Assembly: GCF_963675165.1 (NCBI RefSeq)
Contig: NC_087387.1
Span: 6,744,683 to 6,808,682 of the forward strand
Origin: Halichondria panicea
Taxonomy: Eukaryota > Porifera > Demospongiae > Suberitida > Halichondriidae
DNA: 64,000 nt
Reading direction: 5' to 3'
Shown piece by piece: positions 1-54,344 of this stretch. The notes beneath the pieces were generated by a model that saw only the letters and a program-made list of their open reading frames with translations, was not told where the DNA came from and searched no databases. The position numbers and the translations under genes are program-made. How positions within the stretch are numbered: position 1 is the first letter of the stretch; every line of letters starts with the position of its first letter.

Positions 1-286
1 ATACAGCTCCAGTGGACCTACCTACGAACAAGTTGCCAATGGTAACGAACAAGACCACACCTACTCAATACTTGAATGCAATCAGAACACGAATCGTCGC
101 TCAAATCAGCTCAATCCTATAGACGAGAAACAGAACTACCATGTAGTGGAGAGTGGAAGGTGTGAGGGTGTGGAGGGGGCGGGCTGTGACGGTGTGTACA
201 GTGAAGCTAGTAACTACGAAGTGCCAATGTCAAGCAAAACGGACAGCAAGGTGTGGCTGTGTGAAGAGGAATACACCATTCAGTAA
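1..286 (+). CDS. 3' end of an SRCR receptor gene: tail A exon (cut by window edge)
   Basis: The reading frame is open from base 2 to TAA at 284-286 and encodes about 94 residues of cytoplasmic tail A. Visible motifs in order are GPTYEQVANG, DHTYSIL, NYHVVESGR, SNYEVPM and VWLCEEEY. Other copies end EE(D/E)YSTLKH; here the end is EEYTIQ, so the last YxxL motif has become YTIQ. The start of the exon and the ectodomain lie outside the window. Tail A normally follows families I to IV, so the missing ectodomain is probably one of these, but this cannot be seen. Confidence 0.75.
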   Translation, partial: YSSSGPTYEQVANGNEQDHTYSILECNQNTNRRSNQLNPIDEKQNYHVVESGRCEGVEGAGCDGVYSEASNYEVPMSSKTDSKVWLCEEEYTIQ

Positions 287-681
287 TAATTGTTATAGAT
301 TAGAGGCTTTGCAATTTGTGTGTGTTTGTGTGTGGGTGTGTGTACACGTGTATTTTTAATGAACTGATTCTTTCCCATTGATTATTATAGATTGCTGTTG
401 TATTGGATGGTTTAGTTGTTATGTGTCTATTATTCTAATTATTAAGAAATCATTTTGGTTCTAGTCCCTGTAATGGTTATATACATGCATGCAGTAGCAT
501 AATAATGTTATAATGCTTTAAAGTGGTTGCTGTGACCTGTATATTCCATAGCGGGTTATTTTCGTGGGCCCCGTAAATATTCGTTATTTTTTATAAAAGC
601 AACGCAACAGGAAGTTACAGAAATATATATAACAGGCAGTTAGAAAGCGCCTCAAATAAGACTAGCTAGATCTAGTGAGAT
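287..681. other. Intergenic; 3' flank of tail A and a partial MITE end
   Basis: A GT-rich stretch at about 315-350 follows the stop, as in other tail A copies. At about 549-575 there is one end of the TA-flanked MITE family described at 9737 and 29486 (ATAGCGGGTTATTTTCGT); no second end is seen. No gene is visible. Confidence 0.5.
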
Positions 682-1557
682 ATGAACACTCTGCTACTAT
701 TGATTTCAATCCTCATTGCTCAAGGTAATTTAAAAGTGTATAACTTCTATTAGACTAGGTACAAGTTTACTCCCCCTCAGGCTGCATTGATGGAAAGGTA
801 CAGAGACTAGATGATGGTAGAGTCAATGTTTGTTCTGGTCAAGTATGGAAAACTGTGTGTGAGAAAAACTACCAATTAATGGAGTGTTTATCAAGCTAAT
901 ATTGCTTGCAGACTGCTGGGCTACAATAATAATGGTACATTTCTCAGAGTAATGTATGCTTTGCTAACATTTAATCTTTGGGTCCTACAGGGGCAAGTGT
1001 GAGACGATTATGCTTGGACTCAACCGGTATTGATGTTAGTGAGTGTCGTGGAACTCAGAATACTTTTGAAGAATGTGGAATAACTCCAAGAGATTTTAAT
1101 ACTTGTAGAGGTGGCTGCAGTGGTGCCCGGAGAAGACATCCTGAAATAATGTGTCTATCAGGTAAACATTTTGCTCACAACAGTTTGAGTAAATGCCGTT
1201 ATGAATTGCAGCCGACTGTGCTGATGGAGAGATAAGACTGGTGGGTGGGTCCAGCATAAGAGAGGGACGAGTGGAGGTGTGTGTGGGCGGTCGCTGGGGA
1301 ATTGTGCAAACAAACAATTCCCAACTGATAGAATTTGTTTGCTCTACACTGGGTTTCCCAACTGAAGGTAGGGAAAATGATGGTTGCCATGTGCGTCTAA
1401 TAAATATGTTGTAGATTCAGAAGCAGTCACTACTTTTGGCCATGGAACAGCTCTGACAAGAAGCTGTGTAATAATTAATAGTACCCTCCACTGTGTGGAC
1501 ATTGCAGACCAGTCTGTTGATTCCAACCCAGTATACAATACAAGCATGGAACTATGA
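682..1557 (+). pseudogene. Family I SRCR receptor pseudogene, TM deleted
   Basis: Exons by paralogue comparison: 682-724 (signal MNTLLLLISILIAQ), 781-about 929 (SRCR1 first half), 991-1161 (SRCR1 second half), 1212-1367 (SRCR2 first half), 1415-1557. Two lesions are visible. A 4-base gain near 885 (CAATTAATGG against CAATGG in the intact copy at 42-44 kb) shifts the frame and gives TAA in exon 2. In the last exon the sequence after ADQSVD jumps straight into the middle of tail A (NPVYNTSMEL) and stops, so the stalk, TM helix, TM/tail intron and most of the tail are lost. The 5' exons from 991 on remain readable. Confidence 0.8.
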
Positions 1558-2858: not shown

Positions 2859-5673
2859 ATGGAGATCATCAATCTGTTATTTATTGTACTGGTAACACTG
2901 ACAATATTTTCGGGGACTCAAAGTAAGTAGATTAATATCTATACCTATAATAGCACACTTTATAGATCTGTGCTTGTTGGACAGTCTGTAAATTTATATA
3001 ATTTATAGGCTGTTCTCATGGAGATATTCGACTGGAAAGTAGTGATGCTCTACTGACTGATAGTAGTGGTGCTGTACAAGTTTGCTATAGAAACGTGTGG
3101 AAAAGTATCTGTAGACACAATGGATGGTCAAGTGAAGAGGTGAATGTAGTCTGTAATCAGCTTGGATACAGCAACCATAGTATGTGCTTAAATTGATGTA
3201 TCCTTGAGTGAAAACTGTGCATTTTTATTATTATATATAGGTGCTAAACATTCGTATAAATGCCTTCCACCTAATGAAAATGGATACTTCAGAAATGTGA
3301 ACTGTCTTGGCACCGAACACAACTTCTTGAATGTGGCTACGTGAATAACCCTAGTACATGTAACCAAGGTGGAGGTTGCAGTGGTTTGAGGAGAGATGCC
3401 ACTGTGAGCTGCTTACTAGGTAATCTCATAAAAAATAGGTTCCAATTGTCAATTTACACCGTGTAGCAAACTGCAGTAATGGTGAAGTGCGTCTGGTGAA
3501 CTCGAGAGTGGAGTCTTGTCTCAATGATCGGTGGGGAGGAGTATGCAGTGTAGGGTGGACAGAAGCAATGGCAGGTCTCCTTTGCTCCAAACTAGGATTC
3601 TTTAATGGTAAGAATAGTTACAATCATTATTCACATGCGCTGCATGTGTTGCATGTTTACTGCATGCAACTTTACAGTGGCTGTGATGACAACGCTTGAC
3701 CCACAAGCATCTTCACAACTGGAGTGCACAGTATCCGACAACGAGAATGTCAGCTGTACTGCTACGAGTGATTGTGACATGGAATTGGGAGTGATGTGTC
3801 TAGAGCAAGATTTTGTTACCCGACTAGCTATAGCTATAGTGGACCAAAAAGATACTACGAACTGTGAAACAATGTCAACTAGTACGAAAGTTAGTGATCA
3901 TTCGGAAAGTCAGTCAACAGTGCCGACAACTGAGAACGTTTCTCAAGGAAGTAGTCAAAACGGTACCATTGCATCTAGTGCCACAAGCGAAGTAGAACAA
4001 CCCTCTAGCGAAATGTTGGGAAGCTGTCCTATTGCCTCCTTGGGAGGAGTGATTGGTCTTCTGGTGGTTGTGCTCCTAGGACTTGCTATTGGATTGACTG
4101 TAACTTGCTGTGTGTTGTGGAAACGCAGGTCACAGAAACAGCACGCTGAGTGAGTTCATTGAGCATAATTATGTTTCCATTGAGTGCATTGTTGTTTCAT
4201 GAATGTTTGTTGACAAAAGTGCCAGAGGAATAATTTTATTTGAAAGCACTATTTAGCATGTTTTCTTTAAGGCATAATTATTGTATACATTGTCCACTTT
4301 CAGTTCTAATAATAAGTATTATTGCTTTTTAATAAGTGCTGACATCAGCGTTTTACATTCAAATTGCACAGGAAGCGACTCATCACCAAGTGTGCAGATA
4401 TTTTTCCATATCGCACACCCGGAAGTATTATTGCACACTTGTTATTGCACACTAGGAAGTGATTCTTATTTGGAATAAAACGTTTTCAGCAAGTGAGAGA
4501 ACAAGAAAAACATAGTTTACACACTTATAATCATGTTGCAATGTTTATCAGTCTCTTTTCCTGTTTTCTGATGCTCTGTATCACTTCTGTGCTCTTTTTA
4601 CAGTGAAGCTGAGGGTCAGGAGGTTGTCAGTGTTCATATCTAATGCATCAAACAGGCATCAATGTTGGAAGTGGGTGCTTTGAGCAGAGTATTGCACATG
4701 TAGAAGTGTACTGCACTACCATATAAGCCTGTTCAGGCTTGTATAAAGTCGTTTTGGCTTCAAAAACGGTTGTCACACTTTTCTTCAGTTATAGCGGTGC
4801 ATGTTTCCTCTTCTGCTACACTGGAGCATGATAGAAAGCAAGCACATGCTGTTTATTCTTCAGAACTATCCATTTCAAAACGGGTTGCTGGTTGTCAACG
4901 TTTTTCTTGTCTTTTTTTCTTGTCTGCTCTCTACAAAATCTTTAAGTAGCCTTCTGCAAGCTCTCTTGGTGTTCTAGAGTCTTATTTCTTTGTCTTTCTA
5001 GCTGTTTTCTTTCTCTTAAACTCGTCTTCAACTGGGAGAACTCAATTTTGTTGCTACGCGTTCTTCTGGTTGATAAAGCAACCGCATGTTGCGCATGCGC
5101 AGATTCAACCTGCATTTTGGTTGCCAAGCAATAAATGCATTATCCCATGGATACTGATGATTATCACTCGTCCGTGCCTAGTAACTGTCACTCGTGCCTT
5201 GCAGGCACTCGTGCAGTTACTGGCACAGACTCGTGATAATCTTCAGTATCCATAGGATAATATCATATGAACACGTGGCTGTTCAATGCAGGTACAATAC
5301 TTCTCAAAGACAAGAGTTCTCAACAATTCAACGACAACTGAACAACCCAGTATACGATACAAGCATGGAACCACACAATGCATACAGCTCCAGTGGACCC
5401 ACTTATGAACAAGTTGCCAATGGCAATCAACAAGACCACACCTACTCAATACTTGAGCGCGATGAGAACACGAATCGTCGCTCAAATCAGCTCAATCCTA
5501 TAGACGAGGAGCAGAACTACTATGTGGTGGAGAGTGGAAGGTGTGAGGGTGTGGAGGGGGCGGGCTGTGATGGTGTGTACAATGAGGCTAGTAACTATGA
5601 AGTGCCAATGTCAAGCAAAACGGACAGCAAGGTGTGGCTGTGTGAAGAGGAGTACTCCACACTCAAGCATTGA
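2859..5673 (+). CDS. Family II SRCR receptor, tail A, one frameshift
   Basis: Six exons: 2859-2922 (signal, MEIINLLFIVLVTLTIF), 3009-3179 and 3241-3419 (SRCR1), 3467-3607 and 3678-4149 (SRCR2, Ser/Thr-rich stalk, TM around GGVIGLLVVVLLGLAIGL, then WKRRSQKQ), 5292-5673 (tail A). SRCR2 is short, with CSNGEVRLVNSRVESCLNDRWGGVC. The tail keeps NPVYDTS, PTYEQV, TYSIL, NYYVV, NYEVPM and a C-terminal EEYSTLKH. One base is missing near 3330, between NFL and ECGYVNNP, giving an early TGA; all else is open, so this could be a young pseudogene or a sequence error. The last intron is 1.1 kb because a repeat has landed in it. This is the only member of its ectodomain type in the window. Confidence 0.75.
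4318..5138 (+). repeat. Dispersed ~0.8 kb repeat in the tail intron (copy 1)
   Basis: The stretch from TTGCTTTTTAATAAGTGCTG onward matches 50798 onward over several hundred bases, including GAAGCTGAGGGTCAGG and the near palindrome AGCCTGTTCAGGCTTGT. No coding capacity is recognised. It ends against a foldback (5139-5261) that is also present in the second copy. It is probably a non-autonomous element or composite repeat. Confidence 0.7.
5139..5261. repeat. Foldback (hairpin) element
   Basis: About 123 bases form a near-perfect inverted repeat: ATTATCCCATGGATACTGAT on the left pairs with the right end AGTATCCATAGGATAAT, around a central GCCTTGCAGGCA. The second copy (about 51690-51785) lacks most of the left arm. 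No coding content. Confidence 0.75.
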
Positions 5674-6565: not shown

Positions 6566-7873
6566 TCATTCTCCCCCAGCATTATTCCTTTTCTTCTTAT
6601 TGACAGCTACGTACATATGAACCTCTGTATTGAAGAACTCATCTACTTCACTCTTACTGGCCTCAACCTTCACTGGTGGTGGGTTGGCTGGTTTCAGTTT
6701 CTGTTTTTTGTGATCAATGACATCATAGTCACCAATTCCTTCATCGCTTGTAGTCACAGTATTGTAGTTAGGACCTAGTGAACTGTAGCTCGGTTCTATA
6801 GGAGCTGTGTCAGTGTAGCTCTCATTCACTTGTATTAAAACTCTGCATGTTATAGCATATAATTATAGGATGCAAAGTTAGCTTTGTTTTGTTGGAATTA
6901 AGCGCCTTTTCCTACAATCCACCCACGCAATAACTGTCCCTACTTCCAGTATAGCACCAAAAGTCCAATCACTGATCCTAGTGCACTGGTAGCTATTGTA
7001 TCACTGAACGATGGACACTCAACGGCTAAACCTCGAACACATAACCCACTGTCAGTGATGTTCCCACAGCTCAACCTATTGTTGGTATCGACGTTACAGT
7101 TAATTTGTGGGCCAGTTGTATTCATTTCCTTCGCTGCTGCTCCTACAAAAATTGTTTTAATTTGCTGTGAATAAGTTTCTTACCTTGGCTTGGAAATCCT
7201 AGCTGAGAGCAAACATGTCCAGCTAGTGCTTGGTTGTAGCATATTGTACCCCATCGCTTGTTCTGACACACCTCCACTCGTCCTTGTTTTATGTTGGACC
7301 CACCCACTAGTCTTAGGGCTCCATCAGCACAGTTAGCTTAGTTTATGATTAGACTAAAAATCACGTTACCTGGAATGTATTTTACCCATCCTTGTCTGTT
7401 TTTTTCACTCAAATGACAGTGTTCCAATGTATTTGTTGGCTTACACTCTGCTAATGTATTCTCCCCACCAGCACAAGATTGGTTGAACATGAAGAACTTT
7501 CCCATAATGTCACCAAAGCCAATCATCCCTTTTATGGCTCCTGAAATAATAATTATATTACCGTATAGTGTGCTCTGTAGCATACCTTGGTCACTGTAGC
7601 CTATAGCTGTCTGCATACAACATTCGCTTCAACACGCGACCACGATCTAGTACACAGAGTCCTCCAAATACTATCGATGCAGTACTGAACGTAGCTTCTA
7701 TTGTCCGTTGTGTTATGTGACAGTTGAACATGTCCACTATTACAGCCTGCATGCCATGTTTCTGTATATCAGTCTCTATTATAGTGCATGTACTCACTTT
7801 GTGCTATTGCAGAGAGTTGTCCAACTAAAGCAATAGTGACTAGACCTAGTAGTGCTGAGATAATATTCGCCAT
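6566..7873 (-). pseudogene. Family VI SRCR receptor pseudogene, tail B
   Basis: This is a minus-strand copy of the intact gene at 10493-11816. Signal exon 7798-7873 (MANIISALLGLVTIALVGQ) is intact. In SRCR1 a 2-base gain turns CAGCTAGGC into CAGCTATAGGC (near 7602) and creates TAG. In the TM exon a further 2-base gain (GCTATACTGGAAG near 6950) truncates the helix after IGLLVL, and the basic stretch after the helix has lost several bases. The tail B exon (6566 to about 6840) is readable: SYSSLGPNYNTVTTSDEGI, GDYDVIDH, HMYVAVNK. Several independent lesions make it a pseudogene. Confidence 0.85.
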
Positions 7874-7973
7874 GACTAATATTCAAGCTATAATTATACT
7901 CTTGTGAATGTAAGCAGTAATTTTTAAGTATAGTCTACATGTACTGTGCACAAGCTATATAATGCTGCAAGTT

Positions 7974-8100: not shown

Positions 8101-8104
8101 CACA

Positions 8105-8400: not shown

Positions 8401-8458
8401 CTCTGAGACACTGCTCAATAATACGAAACAATTAAAATTGCTGGTCTGGTTTCTTCTA

Positions 8459-8586: not shown

Positions 8587-8587
8587 C

Positions 8588-9925: not shown

Positions 9926-9927
9926 TA

Positions 9928-10492: not shown

Positions 10493-11816
10493 TTACTTAT
10501 CAATAGCTGCGTACATATGCTCCTCTGCATTGTAGAACTCGTCATCACTCTTACTGGCTTCAACCTTCACTGATGGTGGGTTGGCTGGTTTTGGTTTGGG
10601 CCTGTTGTGATCAAAGACATCATAGTCATCAATTCCTTCATCGCTTGTGGTCACAGTATTGTAGTTAGGACCTAGTGAACTGTAGCTCGGTTCCATAGGA
10701 GCTGTGTCAGTGTAGCTCTCATTCACTTGTAATAAAACTCTGATATATGATAATAGGACAAGGTTAATTAGCAACTTGTACATGTATGAATACCTTTGTT
10801 TTGGTGGACTTGAGAGCCTTTTCCTTGTGACAGTACAAGCCACCCACGCAATGACTGTCCCTACTTCTAGTAGTACAAGAAGTCCAATCACTGCTCCTAG
10901 TGCACTGGTAGCTATTGTCTCACTGAACGATGGACACTCAACAGCTAAACCTCGAGCACATAACCCACTGTCAGTGATGTTCCTACAGCTCAACCTATTG
11001 TTGGTGTCGATGTTACAGTTAATTTGTGGGCCAGTTGAACTCATTTCCTTCGCTGCTGCTCCTACAAAAATTGTTTTAGTTTGCTGCATGTGAATAAATT
11101 TCTTACCTTGGCTTGGAAATCCTAGCTGAGAGCAAACATGTCCAGCTAGTGCTTGGTTGTAGCACATTGTACCCCATCGCTTGTTCTGACACACCTCCAC
11201 TCGTCCTTGTCTTATGTTGGATCTACCCACCAGTCGAAGAGATCCATCAGTGCAGTTGGCTAGTTTTATAGATTTAGTTGATAAGAAAAACAACTAAAAA
11301 TCACGTTACCTGGAATGCATTTTACCCATCCTTGTCTGTTGTTTTCACTCGTGCGACAGTTTTCCAATGTGTTTGTTGGCTTACACTCTGCTAATGTATT
11401 CTCCCCACCAGCACAAGATTGACTGAACCTGAAGAACTTTCCCATATGAATGTCACCAAAGTCAGTCACCCCTTTTATGGCTCCTGAAATAATAATTATA
11501 TTACCATAGTGTGCTCTGTAGCATACCTTGGTTACTGTAGCCTAGCTGTCTGCATACAACATTTGCTTCAACACGCGACCACGATCTAGTACACAGAGTC
11601 CTCCAAATACTATCGATGCAGTACTGAACGTAGCTTTTATTGTCCGTTGTGTTAAGTGACAGTTAAACATGTCCACTATTACAGCCTGAATGCCATGTTT
11701 CTGTATATCAGTCTCTATTATAGTGCATGCATGTACTCACTTTGTGCTATTGCAGAGAGTTGTCCAACTAAAGCAATAGTGACTACACCTAGTAGTGCTG
11801 AGATAATATTCACCAT
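10493..11816 (-). CDS. Family VI SRCR receptor with tail B, intact
   Basis: Six exons on the minus strand: 11741-11816, 11527-11685, 11310-11483, 11107-11259, 10794-11061, 10493-10739. The lengths sum to 1077 bases, 358 residues. Order: signal (MVNIISALLGVVTIALVGQ), SRCR1 (CNSGHV to the VKCIPG end), SRCR2 (CTDGSLRLVGRSNIRQGRVEVCQNKRWGTMC), stalk with paired Cys, TM (ALGAVIGLLVLLEVGTVIAWVAC), basic stop-transfer TVTRKR, then tail B with YSSL, YNTV, YDVF and MYAAIDK. YNTV and YDVF are nine residues apart, an ITAM-like spacing. Introns 1-4 are phase 1 and intron 5 is phase 2. The tail is a little shorter than in the copy at 33.4 kb (AIDK then stop). It is the only uninterrupted family VI gene here and probably signals at the cell surface (inference). 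Confidence 0.85.
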
Positions 11817-12040: not shown

Positions 12041-12049
12041 TCTAGCTGG

Positions 12050-13015: not shown

Positions 13016-15012
13016 ATGGCTAGTATGCTAATCTTTGTGCTAGTGGCTGCATTCATATCACAAGGGACTGCACAAGGTGAATGGAATTTGTTTGAATATT
13101 TGTATTTCATGTGTATCTTAGATACTTGCACTGTCGCTGGTGAGGTCGTGTTGAATCCTGATAGCCCGGTCAGTATTTGTTTGTCTTCACCATTGGGGTT
13201 CAAATGAACCAGCGTATGTTATTCTGGGTGGACTATCACTCATGCAAAACTGGCTTGTAAGCAGAATGGTATGGATTTTCAAGGTACTCACGATAATTGT
13301 TCAAATAGACATCTATAGTTGAAACTGTGAATACAGGATCTCAAGTCATGGATGTATCAGTAAACTCTACAAGTTGTGTAACGTTGCCAGCCTGCAATGC
13401 GAATGAGCAGAACCTAACTGAGTGCTTTATTAATGGACGTCCTGTCACTTCATCATCATCTACCAACCACATAGCTGGATTTACATGTGGTAATAACATT
13501 ATACATATAATTATACTATCACATCGCTCTAAATAATTTATGAGGAAAGCTGTATCTTTATACAGGTTGTTCCGATGGTGATGTTCGATTCAGAGACCAA
13601 CCACCTGAAATAGATGACTCAGTAAAAGGGGTTGTGCAGTTTTGTGTTGATGCATGGAGAGTGGAAAACATTGTGTGCCAGTACTAATTGGTTAACAGCA
13701 AAATCATCCACTATTGCTGCTTCGTACGTAATTTATCGACAACTAGGTTATTCTAAAAGAGGTATATATAAGCTATTTACTAAGCATGTCGCATACATTT
13801 GATGTGATGTATACAGGAGCTACAAGAGGTTCACTCTGTTCATCTCCACCAACACCACCTCATTTCATCAATCCTGCAAGTAATGGAGCTGAAAGAAGCT
13901 TGTTAGAATGTAACAGACCCGGACAAGGAACCACCTGCCCCAGACTGTCCTGTACAGGAAACAGTAACATAAGGGTGTATGGAGCAGTAACTTGTATTAA
14001 AGGTGAATTTATTACCATCTTGTATGTACTTCATTCATGCACTGACAAGATTGCATCATTGGAACCATAAGACTGGTGGGTGGATCCACGCCATGCAAGA
14101 GAGGGACGAGTGGAGGTGTGTGTGAGTGGTTGGTGGGGCACAGTGTGTAGTAGCAATCATCAAGAAATCATCGAGGCTGTCTGCTCTGAACTTGGATTTC
14201 CATCAAATGGTATGCACACTTTAAATTAGCTCGGTATTTTTGATAATTATGTGAGCTGAGTATTGAGGGCAAATCAGATAGCTATTAACTTATGTATTGT
14301 AATATAGGAGTTGAGAAATGGCACTACCACAGAGGCCCAGGTTACACCTGTGTATAGCTGTACACTAACAACCAGCAGTAAGTACTCTGAGTTGCACACC
14401 AACTGTTAACATCAATTGCGATCATTCTATGGATCTTGGTGTTGTATGCAAGACGCACCAAGATGTTATTGGCTCAGTTATTAATAAGACAATCAATCAA
14501 ACCCTTCAGACGTGCCCTGAACAAAACATGAACAATGACATCACACTAGCTAATGAAGTACAAAGCTGTGACGACAATACTGGTAGTCCTATTGCCTCCT
14601 TGGGAGGAGATTGGTCTTCTGATGGTTGCACTCGTGGGACTTGCTATTGGATTGACTGTAACTTGTTGTGTGTTGTGGAAACGCAGGTCACAGAAACAGC
14701 AAGCTGAGTGAGTTCATTGAGCATATGTTTTCATTGAGTGTGTTGTAGTTTCACACTTACTTGTTGACAAACAGCCAGCTGAACAAGTTGATTTAAAGGC
14801 ACTATTATTTTGGCTTTCTGGCTTTTCTCCATGCATGCATGCAATGCAGCAACAGTTCTCAGGTGCAAGAGCTCTCGACAATTCTGAACAACCCAGTGGA
14901 CAATGTTAGCATGGAACCAAACAATGCATACAGCTGCAGTGGACCTACCTACGAACAAGTTGCCAACGGCAATCAACAAGACCACACCTACTCAATACTG
15001 AAAACCAATTAG
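13016..15012 (+). pseudogene. Family III (three-SRCR) receptor pseudogene
   Basis: Exon equivalents: 13016-13076 (signal), 13122-13283, 13337-13489, 13566-13761, 13817-14002, 14050-14209, 14308-14707, 14850-15012. Lesions against the intact copy at 52-54 kb: FKW has become FK-stop (TGA at 13205-13207); a 4-base gain (GATGCATGGAG near 13652) shifts exon 4; a 4-base gain (CCATGCAAGAG at 14091) shifts exon 6; two bases are missing at the start of the TM (GGAGATTGG near 14609). The tail exon keeps PTYEQV and TYSIL but ends early at TAG 15010-15012. Clearly a pseudogene. Confidence 0.9.
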
Positions 15013-15672
15013 GGATACAAAGTTAGTTCTAGCAAATACAGCTGTAGCCAGTTCTCACATGTTCTCTCTGAATTTAGATCGGAAGAGGTCCATAACCATG
15101 GTAACAAGATAACGAGGGTGAACCCTGCATGACCTTGTTCCGGTGTCCATGCATCCAAGGTTTGTAGACTAAGAGCTGGTGAGTTGGAGCAACATAACAC
15201 GCTAGGGGACATTCTCTATTGTCATAGGTGGCCTGCCATTTCTCATCCTCTATTTATAGTGGTCCCCTTCACCCTGGTTATACTGTGTGGTTGAGTAAAC
15301 TAAGAAATGAATGTGTTGTACGCTTTGGCTCACCATTAATTTTATGAAATACACGGAAACTACAAAGTTATTTAGACTCGGGTAGGAGTTGCCATGGTTA
15401 ACTTATTACAGTGTTGTGGAAACACACGTCGCAAGCTGAGTGAGCCCACTGAGTGTATTATATGTATTCCATTGAGTGTGTTGTCGATATTTGTTGCATT
15501 GAAGCATTTTCAGTTTATCAGTTTATAATAGCAACACATCTATGTCTGTCTGTACACAGCACGATATTTCTCGTCTAATAGTCTATGTCTAAATAGATCA
15601 TCATGAATTGTTGTATAAAAGTCACGGAATTGTGATTTGAACAATCGTTTCAACTATAACTATAATAACAAA
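15013..15672. other. Intergenic; holds the paralogous empty site of the 48.9 kb transposon
   Basis: No gene. The sequence recurs inverted at about 48480-48927 plus 50468-50540. At 15041-15047 the single target GCTGTAG (CTACAGC on the other strand) is uninterrupted, whereas the 48.9 kb copy has it duplicated around a 1.5 kb insert. Confidence 0.7.
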
Positions 15673-17202
15673 ATGATGATTCAACTCATCACAGTATCTC
15701 TTCTGCTTTTAGGAACACAAGTGTCAACACAAGGTACTAGTAGTATTTGGATACTGCATGTAACTATAGCATTGTGTGTAATGTTATAGCTTGCTTTCAT
15801 GGAGATGTTCAATTGGTAAACGATAACAACGTTAACAACATTGTCGAGTTCTGTTATAAGGGGGAATGGAGAAGGATCTGTGTGTCTGCTGGTTGGGGCA
15901 ACGTTGAGGCCAACATTGTCTGCTCTCAACTTGGATACAGCAATCAAGGTGCTACTATAGATAACTCAACAGCTTTTTTTAAGAGTGACATAGTCACTGT
16001 TGTTGCTTTATATAGGTGCTACGACCAGCAATGTTAGTATTAGTGAGAATTCACCCTATACGTTTTTGAGGTTTGTCGACTGTGATGAATCTGACGCTAA
16101 TATTGATGAGTGCTACTATGAAGCTCGTAATGGCTGTAAGAATGTTGATAAACATGCAACAGTTCAATGTTCAAGTGGTAAGCATTCCTTTAGACATTAC
16201 TTAATACATATCATTGTTGTGCGCAGCTAATTGTACTGACAGTGACATTCGATTTGTGGGTGGAGCTACTGACAACGAGGGAAAAGTTGAAATATGTAAC
16301 GATAGTCGTTGGATAGCAATTTGCAGCAACGGATGGACTGAGCAAGACGCTGGACAGATGTGCCAAAAGTTTGGATTTGCTAGCATTGGTAGGTTCATAA
16401 TAATTGGCTCGTTTCACCTATCTCTACTCTTCTGTGCAGGAGCTGAAGTGCTTGTATTCAACCCTCGAAGAGTACCAACCATCAACTGCACTATAAGCAA
16501 TTCTGGCGACCTCTCTTGCAATGAATCATGTGATGATGGCACAACAGACCTAGGGATTCGTTGTGTCAGGCAGGAAGTTCTAGACCAAGAAATAAGTGTA
16601 GAGTCGTCATGTGGTGCTGAGTCAAGCACTACAGCACTGGGGGTATTAGTTGGTTTGTTGGTGACTTTGCTGGTGGTCTTGTTGATTGTTTGTGGAGCAA
16701 TGTGGAATCGCATATCACAGAAAGATAAACAAATGTAAGTTCAAGCTCTACTTATGTTTGTCATTTCAGAGCATTTTTGTCCTGCGAGTTCTATTGTACA
16801 CAGTTATGTAATTCATGCAGCTGTGTCTCGTCAGAATCAAACACACTCTCAACAATTCAACGACAACTCAACAACCCAGTATACGATACAAGCATGGAAC
16901 CACACAATGCATACAGCTCTAGTGGACCCACCTACCAACAAGTTGCCAATGGCAATCAACAAGACCACACCTACTCAATACTGGAATGCGATCAGAATAC
17001 AAATCGTCACTCAAATCAGCTCAGTGCTATAGACGAGGAACAGAATTACCATGTGGTGGATAGTGGAAGGTGTGAGGGTGTGGAGGGGGCGGGCTTTGAC
17101 GCTGTGTACAGTGAGGCTAGTAACTACGAAGTGCCAATGTCAAGCAAAACGGACAGCAAGGTGTGGCTGTGTGAAGAGGATTACTCCACACTCAAGCATT
17201 GA
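15673..17202 (+). CDS. Family IV SRCR receptor with tail A, intact
   Basis: Exons 15673-15733, 15790-15948, 16016-16177, 16227-16388, 16440-16734, 16821-17202; total 1221 bases, 406 residues. Order: signal (MMIQLITVSLLLLGTQ), SRCR1 (CFHGDVQLVNDNNVNN, WRRICVSAGWG, VDCDESDANIDECYY), SRCR2 (CTDSDIRFVGGATDNEGK, WIAICSNGWTEQDAGQMC), stalk, TM (ALGVLVGLLVTLLVVLLIVC), tail A with NPVYDTS, TYQQV, TYSIL, NYHVV, VYSEA, NYEVPM and EEDYSTLKH. NPxY suits PTB-domain binding and the Glu-rich YSTL end resembles a hemITAM; both are inferred from motif likeness. A second acceptor at 16769 is in the same frame and would add 17 residues with a 35-base intron. The two-exon SRCR structure is that of group A SRCR domains. 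Confidence 0.9.
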
Positions 17203-18473: not shown

Positions 18474-19225
18474 ACTTACCCAACTGTTTCAAATGTCCTA
18501 TCTACTCGAGTGACCTCGACTACAGGCTCGAGTACATGTCCAATTACAGAAATGACTAACGATGACAGCGCCATTACAGTGGCATTGGGAGCAGTTATTG
18601 GTGTTCTAGTGGTCCTATAAATAATCACTTTAATTAGTTGTGGTGTTGTTGCTAGGAGGAAAAACACTAACTCCAACTATCAAGTGTGTGTAACTCAGTT
18701 ATCTCCCAACAATAATATTATTAGTTTATTGTTTATTGTATGCTAACTATATGCATGCAGTTCCACAGGCATGAATGAGAAGAATGAAACATACGTTCCT
18801 TAAATACCGAGGAGGCGTGATGGAACACTTCCTAGTATACCGTCCGGAGGTCATAACTATGCGAATGTTATTATCGCAAATGATGCGGCAATTGACAACT
18901 ATGATACCGTTACTGCATACAGCCAAGCACCCACAAACACAGCCAAAGCTTATCTGTCTCCACGGTGAGGGAAGAAGCCAGTAAGAGAGAAGAGGAATTC
19001 TTTATTGCCGAGGATCACACCTACGCAGTGGTGGATAAATCAAAGAAAATAAAGGTAAGGAAGTCTCAGAACAATGAAGGCACTAGAAGTGATACTGAAA
19101 CAGAAACCAATCACGATGAGCTATTGGTTGAACAACGTACAGCTGCTGTATCAAGCAGCAACGAGGCTCTTATCTCAAACACTGAACCAGACACAAATGG
19201 ACCAACTCTTAGCGGCAGAGATTGA
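18474..19225 (+). pseudogene. Tail D receptor fragment: stalk, TM and tail exons
   Basis: A Thr/Ser-rich stalk (TRVTSTTGSSTCP) leads into AITVALGAVIGVLVVL, where CAA has become TAA (near 18618). The tail exon from about 18763 contains a further TAA after ETYVP and a one-base loss near 18960 (CCACGGTGAGG against CCACCGGTGAGG at 34.7 kb). Readable tail D motifs: NYDTVTAYSQAP, EDHTYAVVDK, and an acidic, Ser-rich end with stop at 19223-19225. This is the fullest tail D copy in the window. No SRCR exons are joined to it. Confidence 0.7.
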
Positions 19226-19800
19226 GTAACAATTTAACATCCTCATTTTGGGAACTAGCTATATACTAACATTGTTCAGAGCCCTCTGCTATTAGCGAGA
19301 GTCAACACACAGTACAATACACACACGCACACTTTGTTATCAGAGTTATGCCCTCAGGGCACCAGAGAGGATAACTAACTTAAAGTAAACATGCAGGCCA
19401 ACATACAGGGGAATAAGAATTAAACCTTTTGTCTACAAGACTATCATGCTTTGAGTGGACTAAAACATGAAAGCAGTACTATATCATCATACATTAACCT
19501 GTGCACAGTACTTATTTTTACAAATAATGTATCGAGAATATATAGTCACGGTTAGCTAGTAACTGTTTGGTGTTGCTCACTGTATAGTTAAAGTACAGGT
19601 ACATGATAATCTCCATGAAAGGTACGCAACTGTTAGGATTCTTAAAATATGTTATTGTTATCAGGGACCTGACACTAAACAAACTGATGCTTGCTCATTT
19701 TACAAAATAAAATTCCATTGGCTGATACAGGAAACACTATAAAGTAAAAAATAACTCATACAAACCCTATAATTATTCGGAGCATGTTCAGTTCTCTCAA
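19226..19800. other. Intergenic, no gene seen
   Basis: Contains the recurring intergenic piece TTATGCCCTCAGGGCACCAG at about 19345, also found near 27789 and 35018. It acts as a landmark of the copied unit. No coding content. Confidence 0.5.
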
Positions 19801-35255: not shown

Positions 35256-36543
35256 ATGGCTAGTATCTGCTTGGTATTGCTCACTATTGTTATAGTTATA
35301 CACACACTCGCGGACGGGCAAGGTAAGCTAGTGCTTCAGCATAATACTTTAATGATCTGTATATGTTTTTGCAGTGTGCAAAAATGGAACTGTACGGCTA
35401 GTAAGATATGGTAGTTTCAATGAAGAGTATGTCCAGTACTGCCATGATGGAGAGTGGCATTCCCTGTGTGCTGGTGGTGGAACATGGTCAAGAGTGGAGG
35501 CCAATGTTGTGTGTAGACAACTGGGACTCAGCGGCCAAAGTATGGGATATAAATTATACATGTCATTGAATTATAATTACAATCACCAGGAGCCAAGAAA
35601 GGAGGTGATACAACACCAACAGCTAATCCACCCTACTTTATGTTTGGTGACACATCCTGTGCTGGAGGGGAAAGTAACATAGGAGAGTGCAGAATTCATA
35701 CCAATAGTACATGTAGTGATAGAGCAGGATGGGTAAAATGTCAACCAGGTAAGAGCATTCATTTTTGCATATCAAAGCTGATGCTGAGTTGCTATACAGC
35801 TAATTGCACTGATGGAACAGTGAGACTGGTGGGTGGTTTCACTAACAGAGAGGGACGAGTGGACTTCTGTACACAGGGACATTGGGCATCCATCTGTTAC
35901 AATGAAGTGCTGGCAGACACCGTTTGCAATATGTTAGGATTTCCAATGCAGGGTAATAATGCACAACACTATATTTAAGATGAACTTTAAATGTACGAAT
36001 GTTTATACAGGAGCAATGGCGAAAAGTACTACTTCTTCTATTGACCCAAAAGTTGATTACAGTGACAGATGATGGCACCACCCTGAACTGTGGAGACACT
36101 ATACAACTGCCACCTATACGTGATGTAGGAAGCTTAGTCATCACATGCCAAACTTTCAGCCATGCTGTACATACTCTAGCAGTACTAGGAGCAGTGATTG
36201 GGCTTCTTGTACTACTAGAAGTAGGGACAGTTATTGCGTGGGTGGTTTGTACTGTCACAAAGAAAATGCACTCAAGTTCAACAAAACAAAGGTATTAAAT
36301 TACATGCATGGCATGTGCTAGAATTGTTTCCTCTGTTACAGAATTCTAACAAAAGTGAATGAGAGTTACAATGGGACATTCCTAAAACAACCGAACGTCA
36401 GCTCACAAGATCCTAACTACGATACTGTGACCACAAGTGATGAAGCAGTTGGTGACTATGATGTCATTGATAATATCAAGCCCAAGCCGAGAGCACTCCA
36501 GATATCCAACCCACCACCAGTGACGGTGGAAGCCAGTAATTAA
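35256..36543 (+). CDS. Family V SRCR receptor with tail C, one frameshift before the TM
   Basis: Exons 35256-35322, 35375-35539, 35590-35748, 35800-35952, 36011-36291, 36342-36543. Signal MASICLVLLTIVIVIHTLAD; SRCR1 (CKNGTVRLVRYGSFNEEYVQ); SRCR2 has lost two residues (YNEVLADTVC against YNEDLELAGTVC). In exon 5, GATTGTACAG reads GATTACAG, a 2-base loss that gives TGA at 36070-36072, before the TM. The rest (ALGAVIGLLV-type TM, tail C with NYDTVTTSDEAVGDYDVI) is open in the other frame. As it stands it would encode only a secreted two-SRCR ectodomain; a base-call error would restore a full receptor. Confidence 0.75.
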
Positions 36544-40012: not shown

Positions 40013-41366
40013 ATGCGAATATTATCTCAGCACTACTAGGTCTAGTCGCTATTGCTTTAGTTGGACAACTCTCTGCAATAGCACAAAGTGAGTACATTCA
40101 CTATATATAATATAGAGACTGATATACAGAAACATGGCATGCAGGCTGTAATAGTGAACATGTTCAACTGTCACTTAACACAACGGACAATAGAAGCTAC
40201 GTTCAGTACTGCATTGATAGTACTTGGAGGACTCTGTGTACTAGATCGTGGTCGCGTGTTGAAGCGAATGTTGTATGCAGACAGCTAGGCTACAGTGACC
40301 AAGGTATGCTACAGAGCACACTATACCGTAATATAATTATTATTTCAGGAGCCATAAAAGAGGTGACTGACTTTGGGGATATTCATATGGGAAAGTTCTT
40401 CATGTTCAATCAATCTTGTGCTGGTGGGGAGAATACATTAGCAGAGTGTAAGCCAACAACAACATTGGAACACTGTCGCCGTTTTTATATGCGTGAAAAC
40501 AACAGACAAGGATACATTCCAGGTAACGTGATTTCTACTAAACCTAAACTATATTATTATTATAGCTAACTGTACTGATGAATCCCTAAGACTGGTGGGT
40601 GGATCCAACATAAAACAAGGACGAGTGGAGGTGTGTCAGAACAAGCGATGGGGTACAATGTGCTACAACCAAGCACTAGCTGGACATGTTTGCTCTCAGC
40701 TAGGATTTCCAAGCCAAGGTAAGAAACTTATATTCACAGCAAATCAAAGCAATTTTTGTAGGAGCAGCAGCGATGGAAATGAATACAACTGGCCCACAAA
40801 TTAACTGTAACATCGACACCAACAATAGGTTGAGCTGTAGGAACATCACTGACAGTGGGTTATGTCCTCGAGGTTTAGCCGTTGAGTGTCCATCGTTCAG
40901 TGATACAATAGCTACCAGTGCACTAGGAGCAGTGATTGCATTTCTTGTATTACTGGAAGTAGGGACAGTTATTGCGTGGGTGGCTTGTACTGTCACAAGG
41001 AAAAGGAACTCAAGTCCAACAAAACCAAGGTATTCAATTTGCTAAATTTGCCCTATTAAAAAAGCAAAAAATTATCCCGTAACATGCAGAATTCTATTAC
41101 AAGGGAATGAGAGCTGCACTGACACAACTATATAGAACCGAGCTACAGTTCACTAGGTCCTAACTACAATACTGTGACTACAAGCGATGAAGGAATTGGA
41201 GAATATGATGTCATTGATCACAAAAAACAGAAACTGAAACCAGCCAACCCACCACCAGTGAAGATTGAGGCCAGTAAAAGTGATGATGAGTTCTTCAATA
41301 CAGAGGTTCATATGTACACATGCAGCCGTCAATAAGGAGAAAAGGAATAATGTTGGAGGAGAATGA
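40013..41366 (+). pseudogene. Family VI SRCR receptor pseudogene, tail B
   Basis: Exons by homology: 40013-40087, 40145-40303, 40349-40522, 40566-40718, 40762-41029, 41094 onward. The signal exon lost one base (ATGCGAAT for ATGGCGAAT), so the ATG runs into TAG after eight codons. In exon 3 a nine-base in-frame loss removes WVK and the closing Cys of SRCR1. In the tail a one-base loss gives TAG (ACTATATAG near 41129), and +4 bases (TACACATGCAGC near 41312) shift the MYAAV region. SRCR2 and the TM (GAVIAFLVLLEVGTVIAW) are open. Confidence 0.88.
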
Positions 41367-42288: not shown

Positions 42289-43987
42289 TCAATGCTTGAG
42301 TGTGGAGTAATCCTCTTCACACAGCCACACCTTGCTGTCCGTTTTGCTTGACATTGGCACTTCGTAGTTACTAGCCTCACTGTACACACCGTCACAGCCC
42401 GCTCCCTCCACACCCTCACACCTTCCACTCTCCACCACATGGTAGTTCTGCTCCTCGTCTATAGGATTGAGCTGATTTGAGCGACGATTCGTGTTCTTAT
42501 CGCGCTCAAGTATTGAGTAGGTGTGGTCTTGTTCATTGCCATTGGCAACTTGTTCGTAGGTGGGTCCACTGGAGCTGTATGCACTGTGTACTTCCATGCT
42601 TGTATTGTATACTGGGTTGTTCAGTTGTCGTTGAATTGTTGAGAGCTCTTGCACTTGAGAAGTATTGTACCTGCATCGATACAGAGGTGTTCACTTATTA
42701 TTGGAACTGAACGTGGACAATGTATACAATACACCTGAATAAAAACATGCTACATGTATATAGTGCTTTCAAATAAAATTATTCAGCTGGTTCTCTTGTC
42801 AACAAATAATTATTCATGAAACAACAACACACTCAATGGAATACATATGCTCAATGAACTACTCACTCAGCTTGCTGTTTCTGTGACCTGCGTTTCTCCA
42901 ATACACAGCAAGTTACAGTCAATCCAATAGCAAGTCCCAGGAGTGCAACCACCAGAAGACCAATCACTCCTCCCAAGGCTGCAATAGGGCTACCAGCATT
43001 GTCACAGCTTTGTACTTCATCAGCTAGTGTGATTGTGGTTGGTTCAGGACACGTCTGAAGGGCTTGTTCTATTGTTATTTTAATAACTGAGCTGATAACA
43101 TCTTGGTATGTCTTGCACACAACACCAAGATCCATGGAATCATCAACAGACTGGTCTGCAATATCCACACAGTGGAGGACACTATTCATTATTACACAGC
43201 TTCTTGTTGGAGCTGTTCCATTGCCAAAAGTAGTGACTGCTTCTGAACCTATAACATAATTATTAGATGCACATGGCAACCATCACTGTCCCTACCTTCA
43301 GTTGGGAAACCCAGTGTAGAGCAAACAAATTCAACCAGTTGGGAATTGTTTGTTTGAACAGCTCCCCAGCGACCGCCCACACACACCTCCACTCGTCCCT
43401 CTCTCACGCTGGACCCATCCACCAGTCTTATGGTCCCGTTAGTGCAGTCGGCTACAACTCATAAACATTATTATACTCAGCTGTTTTTAACAAAATATTT
43501 ACCTAATAGACACATTATTTCAGGATGACTTTTCTCGGTACCACTGCAGCCACCTCTGCAAGTATCAAAATCTCTTTGGTTGATTCCACATTCTTCAAAC
43601 GTATTCTCTGTTCCACTACACTTACTAACATCAATGTAATTCAGACCGGTTGAGACAAAGCATGATCGTTCCACACTTGCCCCTGTGGGACCCAAAGAAC
43701 TAGCAAAGCATACATTGTACTGACAAATGTACCATTATTATTGTAGCCCAGCAGTCTGCAAGCAATGTTAGCTTGATAAGCACGCCATTGGTAGCCTTTC
43801 TCACACACAGTTTTCCATTCTTGATCAGAGCAAACATTGACTCTACCATCATCTCGTATCTGTACCTTTCCATTGATGCAGCCTGAGGGAGTAAACTTGC
43901 AATCTAATCATAGAAGTATACAAGAACTTTACCTTGAACAGCTTTAGAAGCAACAAAGAGGATTGCAATCAATATCAGAGTGTTCAT
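42289..43987 (-). CDS. Family I SRCR receptor with tail A, intact
   Basis: Minus exons 43933-43987, 43733-43882, 43503-43682, 43296-43451, 42867-43248, 42289-42670; 1305 bases, 434 residues. Signal MNTLILIAILFVASKAVQ; SRCR1 (GCINGKVQIRDDGRVNVC, EKGYQWRAYQANIAC, CSGTENTFEECG); SRCR2 (CTNGTIRLVDGSSVREGRVE, CVGGRWGAVQTNNSQLVEF); stalk (DQSVDDSMDLGVVC); TM (ALGGVIGLLVVALLGLAIGL); EKRRSQKQ; tail A with NPVYNTS, PTYEQV, TYSIL, NYHVV, VYSEA, NYEVPM and EEDYSTLKH. This copy is the reference for judging the family I pseudogenes at 0.7 and 17.9 kb and the short-tail form at 20.1 kb. SRCR2 has CVGGRWGAVQ where most copies have a Cys (TVC), so one disulphide is probably missing. Confidence 0.9.
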
Positions 43988-46463: not shown

Positions 46464-48211
46464 TTATAGAGTTTCTGAGTCCCTATATTGAATATACATA
46501 AACAGACACACATGAATTGCAAGGTCTCTATATAACACCGAAGTTTGGAACCACATTTTAGCAGCTTCACACAGCCACACCTTGCTGTCCGTTTTGCTTG
46601 ACATTGGCACTTCGTAGTTACTAGCTTCACTGTACACACTGTCACAGCCCGCCCCCTCCACACCCTCACACCTTCCACTCTCCACCACATAGTAGTTCTG
46701 TTCCTCGTCTATAGCAGTGAGCTGATTTGAGTGACGATTTGTATTCTGATCGCATTCCAGTATCGAATAGGTGTGGTCTTGTTGATTGCCATTGGCAACT
46801 TGTTGGTAGGTGGGTCCACTGGAGCTATATGCATTGTGTAGTTCCATGCTTGTATCATATACTGGGTTGTTCAGTTGTCGTTGAATTGTTGAGAGTGTGC
46901 TTGTTTCTGACGACATACATGCAGCTGCATGTACAACATATATTAACTGTGTACAGTAGACGTAGGACAAAAATGCTCTGAAATGACAAACACATAAGTA
47001 TGAACTTACATTTGTTTATGTTTCTGTGATATGCGATTCCACATTACTCCACAAACAATCAACAAGACCACCAGCAGAGCCACCAACAAAGCAACTATTA
47101 CCCCCAGTGCTGTAGTGCTTGACTCAGTACCACATGACGACTCTATACATGTATATATAGAGGTTACTGTATCTGTGGACATAGCATTACCCTGTACATG
47201 GCTAACAGAGGGACTAGCTGTTGTATTACAGTAATCACACGAGAATTCACAAGTCTGGTTTGTTTGAATTGTGGAATTATAAACTGAAGTTACGTTGTCA
47301 CAAGGAGTGCTTATTTGATTCAGAACTTCCTGCCTGACACAACGAATCCCTAGGTCTGTTGTACCATCATCACATGATTCATTGCAAGAGAGGTCGCCAG
47401 AATCGCCTATAGTGCAGTTGATGGTTGGTACTCTTCGTGGGTTGAATACAAGCACTTCAGCTCCTGCACAGAAGAGTAGATTGATTAAATTGACAATTAT
47501 TATGAACTCACCAATGCTAGCAAATCGAAACTCTTGGCACATTTGTCCAGCGTCTTGCTCAGTCGATGCGTTGCTACAAATTGCCATCCAACGGCGATCT
47601 GTACACATTTCAACTCTTCCCTCGTTGTCAGTAGCTCCACCCACCAGTCGAATATCCCTGTCAGCGCAATTAGCTGCGTACAACAAGGATAGTTATGATA
47701 ATGTTAAATGAATGCTTACCACTTGAACATTGAACTGTTGCATGTTTATCAACCATATTACAGCCATTACGAGCTTCATAGTAGCACTCATCAATATTAG
47801 CGTCAGATTCATCACAGTCGACAAACCTCAAAAACGTATAGGGTGAATTCTGACTAATACTAACATTGCTGGTCGTAGCACCTATATATATAAAGCAACA
47901 ATAGTGACTATGTCTACTCTTAGGAAAAGCTGTTGAGTTATCTATAGTAGCACCTTGATCGCTGTATCCAAGTTGAGAGCAGACAATGTTGGCCTCAACG
48001 TTACCCCATGTATCAGACACACAGATCCTTCTCCAATCCCCCTTATAACAGAACTCGACAATGTTGTTAACGTTGTTGTCGTTTACCAATTGAATATCTC
48101 CATGAAAGCAAGCTGTAACATATTAGATATGTAGTTACATGCAGTATCCAAATACTACTGTATACCTTGTGTTCCTAAAAACAGAAGAGATACTGTGATG
48201 AGTTGTATCAT
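46464..48211 (-). CDS. Family IV SRCR receptor with tail A, altered C-terminus
   Basis: Minus exons 48166-48211 (MIQLITVSLLFLGTQ), 47954-48112, 47720-47881, 47512-47673, 47010-47463, 46464-46977; 1497 bases, 498 residues. SRCR1 (CFHGDIQLVNDNNVNN, CVSDTWGNVEAN); SRCR2 (CADRDIRLVGGATDNEGRVE); a stalk about 50 residues longer than in the 15.7 kb copy (CDNVTSVYNSTIQTNQTCEF, SDYCNTTASPSV-like); TM (ALGVIVALLVALLVVLLIVC). The paralogous acceptor is out of frame because of a 4-base gain (CTGCATGTATG near 46919). Only the acceptor at 46978-46980 keeps frame, and it implies a 32-base intron. The tail keeps NPVYDTS, TYQQV, TYSIL, NYYVV and NYEVPM, then diverges after VWLCE to AAKMWFQTSVL and loses EEDYSTLKH. 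Confidence 0.82.
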
Positions 48212-50467: not shown

Positions 50468-50474
50468 CTACAGC

Positions 50475-51795: not shown

Positions 51796-52061
51796 ATAGT
51801 ATATAATTATGCATGTCTGTTATGCACATTACCTCTGAGGAACTGAATTCCAAACCCATTTATAGACAGTTAAGAGAATCAGAACCAATTAGACAAAACT
51901 ACATCACTCCAACCACAACTCACATCATTAAAACATGTGATAAAGTATTCAAAATAGTATGATATAATAATTATTATAGTGACTCAGATTATATGTACTT
52001 GAAATTTCTAAGTTTTGATCAAAAGCAAGTGTATGATTTTATACACAAATGTTCAGTTCTC
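51796..52061. other. Intergenic; 3' flank of tail A
   Basis: A decayed copy of the tail A/B spacer (GAACTGAATTCCAAACCC near 51840). No gene. Confidence 0.5.
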
Positions 52062-54344
52062 TCAATGCTTGAGTGTGGAGTAGTCCTCTTCACACAGCCA
52101 TACTTTGCTGTCCGTTTTGCTTGACATTGGCACTTCGTAGTTACTAGCCTCACTGTACACACCGTCACAGCAGCCTGCCCCCTCCACACCCACACACCTT
52201 CCACTCTCCACCACATGGTAGTTCTGCTCCTCATCTATAGGATTAAGCTGAAATGAGCGATGATTTATGTTCTTATCGCGCTCAAGTATTGAGTAGGTGT
52301 GGTCTTGTTTATTGCCATTGGCAACTTGTTCGTAGGTGGGTCCACTGGAGCTGTATGCACTGTGTAGTTCCATGCTTGTATCGTATACTGGGTTGTTCAG
52401 TTGTCGTTGAATTGTTGAGAGCTTTTGCACTTGAGAAATGTTGTATCTGTGTACAGTCATGCAGACATGCAGACAGGTGTTCATACTTAATATTGGAACT
52501 GAAAGTGGACAATGTATATGCAATGTACGCCTGAAAGAAAATAAGCTGAATAGTGCTTTCAAAATAAACTTATTCAGCTGGCTCTTTTGTCAACAAGCAT
52601 TTATCAACACACTCAATGGAACACATACGCTCAATGAACTCACTCAGCTTGCTGTTTCTGTGACCAGCGCTTCCCCAACACACAACAAGTTACAGTTAAT
52701 CCAATAGCAAGTCCTAGGAGCACAACCACCAGAAGACCAATCAATCCTCCCAAGGCAGCAGTAGGACAGCTTCCCATCATTTTATTATTAGCTAATGTAA
52801 CGAATTGGTCTACTTCACTGGTGGTGGGGGCTGGCTGATTTGTTCCGCTGGTCGTGGTTGGTTCAGGGCATGTCTGAAGGGTTTGATCGATTGTCCTATT
52901 AATAACTGAGCCAATAACATCTTGGTGTGTCTTGCACACAACACCAAGATCCATGGAATGATCGCAATTGACGTTAACAGTTGGTGTGCAACTCAGACTA
53001 CTGCTGGTTGTTAGTGTACAGCTATACACAGGTGTACCCTCTGTAGTAGTGCCATTCCTCAAAACTTCAACTCCTATATTACAATACATAAGTTAATAGC
53101 TATCAGATTTGCCCTCAATACTCAGCTCACATAATTATCAAAAATACAGAGCTAATTTACAGTGTGCATACCATTTGATGGAAATCCAAGTTCAGAGCAG
53201 ACAGCCCCGGTGATTTCTTGATGATTGATACTACACACTGTGCCCCACCGACCACCCACACACACCTCCACTCGTCCTTCTCTTGGCGTGGATCCATCCA
53301 CCAGTCTTGTGGTTCCAATGATGCAATCTTGTCAGTGCATGAATGATTACATACAAGATGGTAATAAATTGTTCACCTTTAATACAAGTCACTGCACCAT
53401 ACGCTCTATTGTCTCCTGTACAGGACAGTTTGGGGCAGGTGGTTCCTTGATTGGTTCTGCTACATTCTAACAGGCTTCTTTCAGCTCCATTACACATAGG
53501 ATTAATGAAATGAGGTGGTGTTGGTAGAGATGAACAGACTGAACCTCTTGCAGCTTCTGTATGTACACATGATAACAGATAGCATGCTAGATATTATACC
53601 TCTTTCAGAATAGCCTAGTTGTCGACAAACCACATATGGAGCGAAAATGGTATTTGAAATTTGTTTTAACCAATTATTTTTAGTTGCACACAATGTTTCC
53701 CACTCTCCATGGACACAAAGCTGCACTGCTCCTTTTACTGAGTTATCCATTTCAATTGGTTGGTCTCTGAATCGAACATCACCATTGGAACAACCTGTAA
53801 ACGTCTTGCCTCATAATAAGAGTATATATAGAGAGCTATAGACAGTATAACTTTCTTACCACACATAAATCCAGCTAAGTTACTGCTAGTAGTTGATAGC
53901 AGATCAAAAGAGTGTCCACGAATGCATTCAGTCAGGTTCTGTTCATATCCATTGCAGTCGGGGAACGTTACACAAGTTGTAGGGTTCCCTTTATCAACCA
54001 CTGCTACCTGAGCCCCTAATATGTTCACAGACATAATTATGATTATTTGAACACTTATTGTACGTACCTTGAAAATCCATACTATTCTGTTGACAAGCCA
54101 GTTTGGCATGAGTGATAGTCCATCCAGAAGAACATACGCTGGTCCATTTTAAACTTAAACTTGAATTTGAAGACAGACAAATACTGACTGAGCTATCAAG
54201 ATTCAACTCGAACTCACCAGCGACAGTGCAAGTATCTGTAATCTATTCACGTTAATACAAATATTCAAACAAAATTCATTCACCTTGTGCTGTCCCTTGT
54301 GTTATGAAAGTAGCTACTAGCACCGAGATCAGCATACTAGCCAT
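52062..54344 (-). CDS. Family III three-SRCR receptor with tail A, intact
   Basis: Minus exons 54284-54344, 54068-54235, 53860-54015, 53600-53794, 53377-53556, 53172-53327, 52644-53073, 52062-52446; 1731 bases, 576 residues. Signal MASMLISVLVATFITQGT; SRCR1 (CTVAGEFELNLDSSVSIC, WTSVCSSGWTITHAKLAC); SRCR2 (CSNGDVRFRDQPIEMDNSVK, GEWETLCATKNNW, CNGAERSLLEC); SRCR3 (CIIGTTRLVDGSTPREGRVE, VGGRWGTVC), completed by the exon that also carries a Thr-rich stalk and the TM (ALGGLIGLLVVVLLGLAIGL); GKRWSQKQ; tail A with NPVYDTS, PTYEQV, TYSIL, NYHVV, VYSEA, NYEVPM, EEDYSTLKH. Tail A has a one-residue gain (GAGCCDG). This is the largest receptor here and the reference for the two family III pseudogenes. 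Confidence 0.92.

Follow-up and report, generated by a model that had tools for sequence, protein, structure and literature searches.

A clustered family of candidate SRCR receptors with tyrosine-motif tails, apparently exchanged between genes, in the sponge Halichondria panicea

Membrane receptors combining scavenger receptor cysteine-rich (SRCR) domains with tyrosine motifs in their tails have been described in the WC1/CD163 family of mammals (PMC2681482, PMC2906472, PMC3511184), in which a tail tyrosine located in a YEEL motif is needed for the function of WC1. As described in these reports, WC1 has 6-11 SRCR domains, each encoded in a single exon (PMC2681482), with group B cysteines and a tail distributed over 4-6 exons, and similar ectodomains are paired with short or long tails (PMC3511184, PMC2681482). 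In Drosophila, the immunoreceptor tyrosine-based activation motif (ITAM) of Draper works with Src42A and Shark, the functions of its NPxY motif are separable and a form having the inhibitory type of motif (ITIM) recruits the phosphatase Corkscrew (PMC4503800). Expansions of SRCR genes are also known in the sponges Amphimedon and Stylissa (PMC10855680, PMC4772301), and in Amphimedon they occur as tandem arrays, with mostly three exons per domain and group C domains having seven conserved cysteines (PMC10855680). The 64,000-nucleotide stretch analysed here (the window; positions 6,744,683 to 6,808,682 of contig NC_087387.1, hereafter C11) comes from the sponge Halichondria panicea, and all results relate to one assembly. 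From base 1 to ca. 54 kb, the window carries on both strands recurring SRCR half-domain exons, transmembrane (TM) exons and single-exon tails, as detected by a six-frame profile scan. These may be the genes of a clustered family of type I membrane receptors having 2-3 SRCR domains, one TM segment and a single-exon tail, and acting as WC1- or Draper-like phosphotyrosine receptors, a reading to which we give a probability of roughly one half.

Profiles made from exon translations were used for scanning the window, and units were delimited by splice sites, reading frames and hydrophobic first exons. This resulted in 17 gene-like units, seven with a tail designated A (A1-A7) and ten with a tail designated B (B1-B10), whose location is given in Table 1. 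Six of them (A3, A5, A6, A7, B4 and B8) have an uninterrupted reading frame between ATG and stop and GT-AG introns, some of which have weak donors (e.g. gtgcta and gtacta in A3). In these open models the intron phases are 1-1-1-1-2 or, for the three-SRCR gene A7, six phase-1 introns followed by one of phase 2; N-terminal exons are hydrophobic and the exon preceding the tail encodes the second half of the last SRCR domain together with the TM segment. The shared organization and exon phases put forward in a preliminary description of this locus, which on the whole was largely right and is confirmed in part, are thus borne out by the repeated exons and consistent phases of the open models. All six exceed the curated cut-off of PF00530 (54-93 bits versus 26.1), with two matching stretches per model and three in A7, and in each of the six the SRCR domains are split by a phase-1 intron, giving two exons per domain. 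The eight domains counted (A6 and A7 left out) contain 8, 8, 10, 6, 8, 8, 8 and 7 cysteines, and in all eight the cysteine at the LGx position is replaced by Y, F or L. When compared to solved structures, B8 matched CD163, PIT54, CD5L, CD6 and others (21 distinct sequences). A glutamate was also observed inside the TM segment (LLVLLEVG) of 9/9 B-type TM hits (e.g. 24828-24947 and 32989-33105); acidic residues in TM segments often mediate association with a partner chain.

The locus resembles WC1, as described in the reports cited above, in being a cluster of multigene SRCR membrane receptors with tyrosine-motif tails, but differs in having only 2-3 domains each spread over two exons, no LGx cysteine, a single tail exon and an NPxY motif, so that neither the cysteine nor the exon pattern of group B/WC1 was found here. 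As in the accounts of Amphimedon and Stylissa, there is a large SRCR expansion with domains split over exons, in tandem arrays for Amphimedon; unlike the sponge group C described there, each domain occupies two exons and the eight domains counted have 6-10 cysteines, with seven in only one. With Draper/CED-1, the locus has in common an NPxY and an ITAM-like pair of motifs in one tail and a genome containing Src-like, Shark-like and SHP-2-like genes. Unlike Draper, whose ectodomain is not known to be of the SRCR type, it comprises a large family of putative SRCR receptors. CD5 and CD6, single genes with group B SRCR domains, likewise associate an SRCR ectodomain, a TM segment and a tyrosine-rich tail, a likeness of architecture. 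The word "tyrosine" is absent from the main text of PMC10855680 and occurs once, in a reference, in PMC4772301, and the open-licence listings of PubMed Central, whose scope excludes subscription papers and preprints, showed none that deals with SRCR receptors of sponges carrying tails of this kind. The tail architecture had been presented as lacking a known description, which does not hold for mammals, where SRCR tyrosine tails are known; since front and tail combinations are described for WC1, combining them is not new as such either, at least from what these reports contain. What would be new is the passing of a single-exon tail, in a sponge, between genes whose ectodomains are saturated.

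Evidence for such a transfer comes from the separate histories of ectodomains and tails. Pairwise synonymous divergence (dS) between the tail-A exons of A1, A3, A5, A6 and A7 ranges from 0.07 to 0.23. For the same ten pairs, dS of the first SRCR half-exon (SRCR1a, for which the middle domain of A7 was used) is at least 1.6 or saturated in nine, the exception being A3-A6 (0.09), and that of SRCR2a is 0.22 for A3-A6, 0.86 for A5-A7 and at least 1.3 or saturated for the remaining eight. At the nucleotide level, A3 is similar to A1, A5 and A7 over the tail exon only (ca. 360 bp at 91-94%), except for 43- and 53-bp hits in other parts; the TM region is also common to A1, A5 and A7, and the 3' flank to A1 and A5. 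All four possible pairings of two ectodomain types with two tail types are represented in the nine B genes compared, B6 being excluded: type 1 with the long tail (B1, B2, B10) or the short one (B5), and type 2 with the long tail (B4, B8) or the short one (B3, B7, B9). The ectodomain and tail trees of these genes exclude each other (approximately unbiased test, 1.8e-35 and 6.9e-60), both splits having a bootstrap of 100. Because seven of the nine are broken copies, this documents an exchange of sequence and not that each combination works. The same pattern was found outside the window between locus L084 and loci L085-L087, with dS from 0.75 to saturated for SRCR1, 0.61-0.69 for SRCR2a, 0.10-0.12 for the TM exon and 0.12-0.32 for the tail. 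These data indicate that tails have been exchanged or homogenised independently of the ectodomains, for which gene conversion or unequal crossing-over would provide an explanation; different recognition fronts would in this way become joined to a standard tail. Being a sequence result, this pattern can be checked at once across several individuals.

The tails are rich in tyrosines, with eight in the tail-A core (nine in A5 when the juxtamembrane one is included), 5-6 in the long form of tail B and three in its short form; single-exon tyrosine tails had been correctly recognized before, their range of 4-8 having to be widened to 3-9. When compared to shuffles of the same residues, YxxV/I/L is in excess in 6/7 tails tested (p 0.0001-0.033), the seventh being that of L066 (p=0.195), and together with NPVY and YEVP in tail A this agrees with the motif contexts first noted. 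PTB (phosphotyrosine-binding) ligands follow the consensus Phi-x-N-P-x-Y, to which the predicted sites of tail A (LNNPVY in 5/5 rows reaching that point), L084 and L085 (LNNPVY), and L086 and L087 (LNNPAY) conform. The ITAM consensus is YxxL/I-x6-12-YxxL/I; the core pair of tail A reads YEQV or YQQV-x9-YSIL, and a spacing of nine is found in all six tail-A representatives and in three of six tail-B-type ones (B4, B9 and L057; not B8, in which the first core motif is broken, L066 or L080). Tails of L084-L086 (C11:5.84, 5.90 and 2.76 Mb), with YSTL-x7-YHTL or YHIL, are closer to a canonical ITAM than those of the window, and L087 lacks the second tyrosine of the pair.

Conservation of tyrosines was assessed in ten pairwise tail comparisons of tyrosine columns versus other columns. 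Between tail A of A5 and its homologue at 5.84 Mb (37% identical), all eight A5 tyrosines and 8/9 tyrosine columns are kept, versus 32/99 other columns (p=0.0014). Similar preferences were obtained for A5 and the 2.76-Mb tail (p=0.0046) and for A3 and the 5.90-Mb tail (p=0.0017); values were p=0.075 between the two distant clusters, and 0.27 and 0.084 between tails A and B. Tail-A dN/dS (ratio of nonsynonymous to synonymous rates) is 0.20-0.55 over ten pairs, indicating purifying selection on tail A.

A genome search with the three tail exons of the preliminary description, which had proposed it, listed 50 matches for tail A, 64 for tail B and 34 for tail C, all on C11 and in several clusters (near 2.76-2.82, 5.44-5.47, 5.53-5.59, 5.84-5.93, 5.98-6.02 and 6.64-6.80 Mb). 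SRCR matches, of which there are at least 213, are far commoner and spread over many contigs. Within the 1.5-kb upstream flank of 14 of the 65 tail loci L019-L083, SRCR exons were found in 12 cases, L061 having only a TM exon and L067 neither; in the four added loci, L084-L087, SRCR and TM exons accompany the tail in every case. Tail C, considered as a third independent tail, was rejected as such since both the C-terminal part of tail B and the tails at C11:5.53-5.59 Mb are related to it, so that three separate kinds of tail are no longer recognized. The tail of L057 (C11:6.005 Mb) consists of a tail-B core with a tail-A-like end (EYSRLKR), which suggests that tails A and B are themselves related.

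Candidate signalling partners, whose presence alone was established by joining neighbouring exons, occur in the same genome, in which 71 SH2 and nine PID exon matches were found. Frames near the SH2 hits are presumably Src-family, Abl and Csk kinases, judging from their sequences, and the one Src-like frame submitted to Pfam has an SH2 and a tyrosine kinase domain. One site encodes two SH2 domains, the first of them partial, and a phosphatase domain, with PTPN11/SHP-2 as best match. At another, exons for SH2, ankyrin, SH2 and kinase follow each other, which is the domain order of Shark/HTK16. Its first SH2 matches ZAP-70 and SYK, although ankyrin proteins top the list, and its kinase piece matches SYK and ZAP-70, ranked under one long EGFR entry in which no single stretch is significant. 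A search with PF08416 gave no match, but neither did its controls. A putative Src-like kinase, tandem-SH2 kinase of Syk/Shark type and SHP-like phosphatase are thus all encoded in this genome.

Under the phosphotyrosine-receptor reading, SRCR domains would bind a ligand that clusters the receptors, and Src-family kinases would then phosphorylate the tail. The YxxPhi sites, which form ITAM-like pairs (YxxPhi-x9-YxxPhi), might be read either by a tandem-SH2 Shark-type kinase, leading to activation, or by an SHP-2-like phosphatase, leading to inhibition, and the NPxY of tail A by a PTB/PID adaptor, as in Draper and WC1. Duplication would generate new ectodomains, and tail exchange would keep a common output or switch between long and short B tails. 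The parts that the data address directly are the predicted anatomy, the six open frames, the tyrosine constraint on tail A and the exchange or homogenisation of tail exons behind diverged ectodomains. Signalling through SH2/PTB proteins, as proposed earlier, is plausible given the retained tail-A tyrosines, purifying selection and the SH2, PID, kinase and phosphatase genes. Several observations weigh against the reading as a whole. Tail-B tyrosines are not preferentially conserved in four comparisons (p 0.18, 0.53, 0.37 and 0.59), and tail A has V as the last residue of its first core motif, which hence departs from a canonical ITAM. No positive selection on SRCR exons was detected in the open pair B4-B8 (dN/dS 0.62 for SRCR1a and 0.71 for SRCR2a), and each SRCR-exon pair with dN/dS >1 includes at least one broken copy. 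Eleven of the 17 units (A1, A2, A4, B1, B2, B3, B5, B6, B7, B9 and B10) appear broken, including all four window copies of the type-1 B ectodomain (B1, B2, B5 and B10), so that the "about a dozen near-complete genes" reported initially were an overstatement.

A wider reading is put forward only tentatively: these would be multigene immunoreceptors of an early-branching animal, in which a standard phosphotyrosine tail was repeatedly copied behind fast-diverging SRCR fronts, with activating and inhibitory tails working through Src, a Shark-type kinase and SHP-2. By analogy, this might possibly correspond to the logic of paired immunoreceptors, without Ig domains. If true, a variable front, a shared tail and a relay of Src-family kinase, ITAM and Syk/SHP would have been joined to SRCR domains in a probably very early animal lineage, and it could be tested whether tyrosine signalling by immunoreceptors is older than immune receptors of the Ig type or had several origins.

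Alternatively, and rather improbably, the tails may serve endocytosis or trafficking, the proteins being scavenger receptors in which ligand uptake involves no tyrosine signalling. A scavenger role is known for SRCR proteins, the genome contains PID domains, and YxxPhi (AP-2 type) and NPxY are also internalisation signals that suit AP-2 and PTB endocytic adaptors; the number of motifs, their fixed spacing of nine and the YxxP site would however exceed endocytic needs.

That the array is mostly decaying, with at most a few of its recent duplicates expressed and tails alike from recent duplication alone, would fit the broken units and the presence of near-identical inverted and direct copies. 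Window positions 17887-53921 have an inverted copy at C11:6635072-6669559, the inner ends being ca. 93 kb apart. Twelve stretches of 2.8-3.4 kb sampled from it (L019, L025, L031, L033, L037, L039, L044, L054, L055, L064, L069 and L072) have 99.94-100% identity, and it either arose by recent inverted duplication or reflects a duplication in the assembly. The region of A7 (51865-53921) has a further copy, L024 at C11:6.018 Mb, with 100% identity over 2057 bp followed by a sharp break. Decay is nonetheless improbable given six open frames with consistent intron phases and a tail-A dN/dS well below 1, and recent duplication of whole genes cannot yield saturated ectodomains with near-identical tails; the exchange argument is moreover independent of the inverted copy because it is built on copies that differ. 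Overall, inverted and direct duplicates, many broken copies and unlike ectodomain and tail histories support well the initial view of a locally evolving family.

Constraint on silent sites, instead of exchange, as the cause of low tail dS would agree with the similarity of A3 to A1, A5 and A7 stopping at exon edges, but is highly improbable because the tail-A exon reaches a dS of 1.4-1.7 against distant clusters, A3 and A6, sisters in ectodomain and TM, have tails (0.127) no closer than those of A3 and A5 (0.126), and B5 and B9 are 88% alike over TM exon, intron and tail taken as one, versus ca. 70% over SRCR stretches.

Table 1. Units and fragments of the SRCR array, in window coordinates
Feature	Position	Strand	Description
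Tail-A exon	1..286	+	gene starting upstream of the window
A1	2859..5673	+	near-complete apart from a frame break in SRCR1b; open tail-A exon at 5292-5673
B1	6566..7873	-	broken, TM in two frames; tail B-long
B2	10493..11816	-	stop in SRCR1a; tail B-long
A2	13016..15099	+	degraded; tail stops early
A3	15673..17202	+	open model, 406 aa, signal-SRCR-SRCR-TM-tail A
A3 exons	15673-15733, 15790-15948, 16016-16177, 16227-16388, 16440-16734, 16821-17202	+	
TM fragment and tail C	18576..19225	+	
A4	19800..21315	-	tail interrupted by stops
B3	22014..23142	+	without TM; tail B-short
B4	23828..25264	+	open model, 390 aa, two SRCR, TM with Glu, tail B-long
B5	25877..27325	+	type-1 ectodomain and tail B-short; SRCR1a in two frames
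B6	28056..29322	+	degraded; stop in TM; tail B-short
B7	30018..31474	+	degraded; first exon out of frame; tail B-short in two frames
B8	32052..33431	+	open model, 370 aa, two SRCR, TM with Glu, tail B-long
B9	35256..36543	+	near-complete; SRCR2b-TM exon apparently out of frame (less certain); tail B-short
B10	40013..41350	+	first exon without ATG; frame break in tail
A5	42289..43987	-	open model, 434 aa; tail A with NPVY, YEQV-x9-YSIL, YHVV, YEVP, YSTL
A5 exons	43987-43933, 43882-43733, 43682-43503, 43451-43296, 43248-42867, 42670-42289	-	
A6	46464..48211	-	open model, 498 aa; C-terminus of tail A altered and lacking the last YSTL
A7	52062..54344	-	open model, 576 aa, three SRCR domains, tail A

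The last base of the window is also that of the contig (C11:6808682), and doubled TTAGGG or CCCTAA was not found in the window. An E2F/DP-type DNA-binding exon lies beside the array at 57717-58064 (+), and a single-exon class C G-protein-coupled receptor gene having ANF_receptor and 7tm_3 domains is located at 61345-63663 (+).

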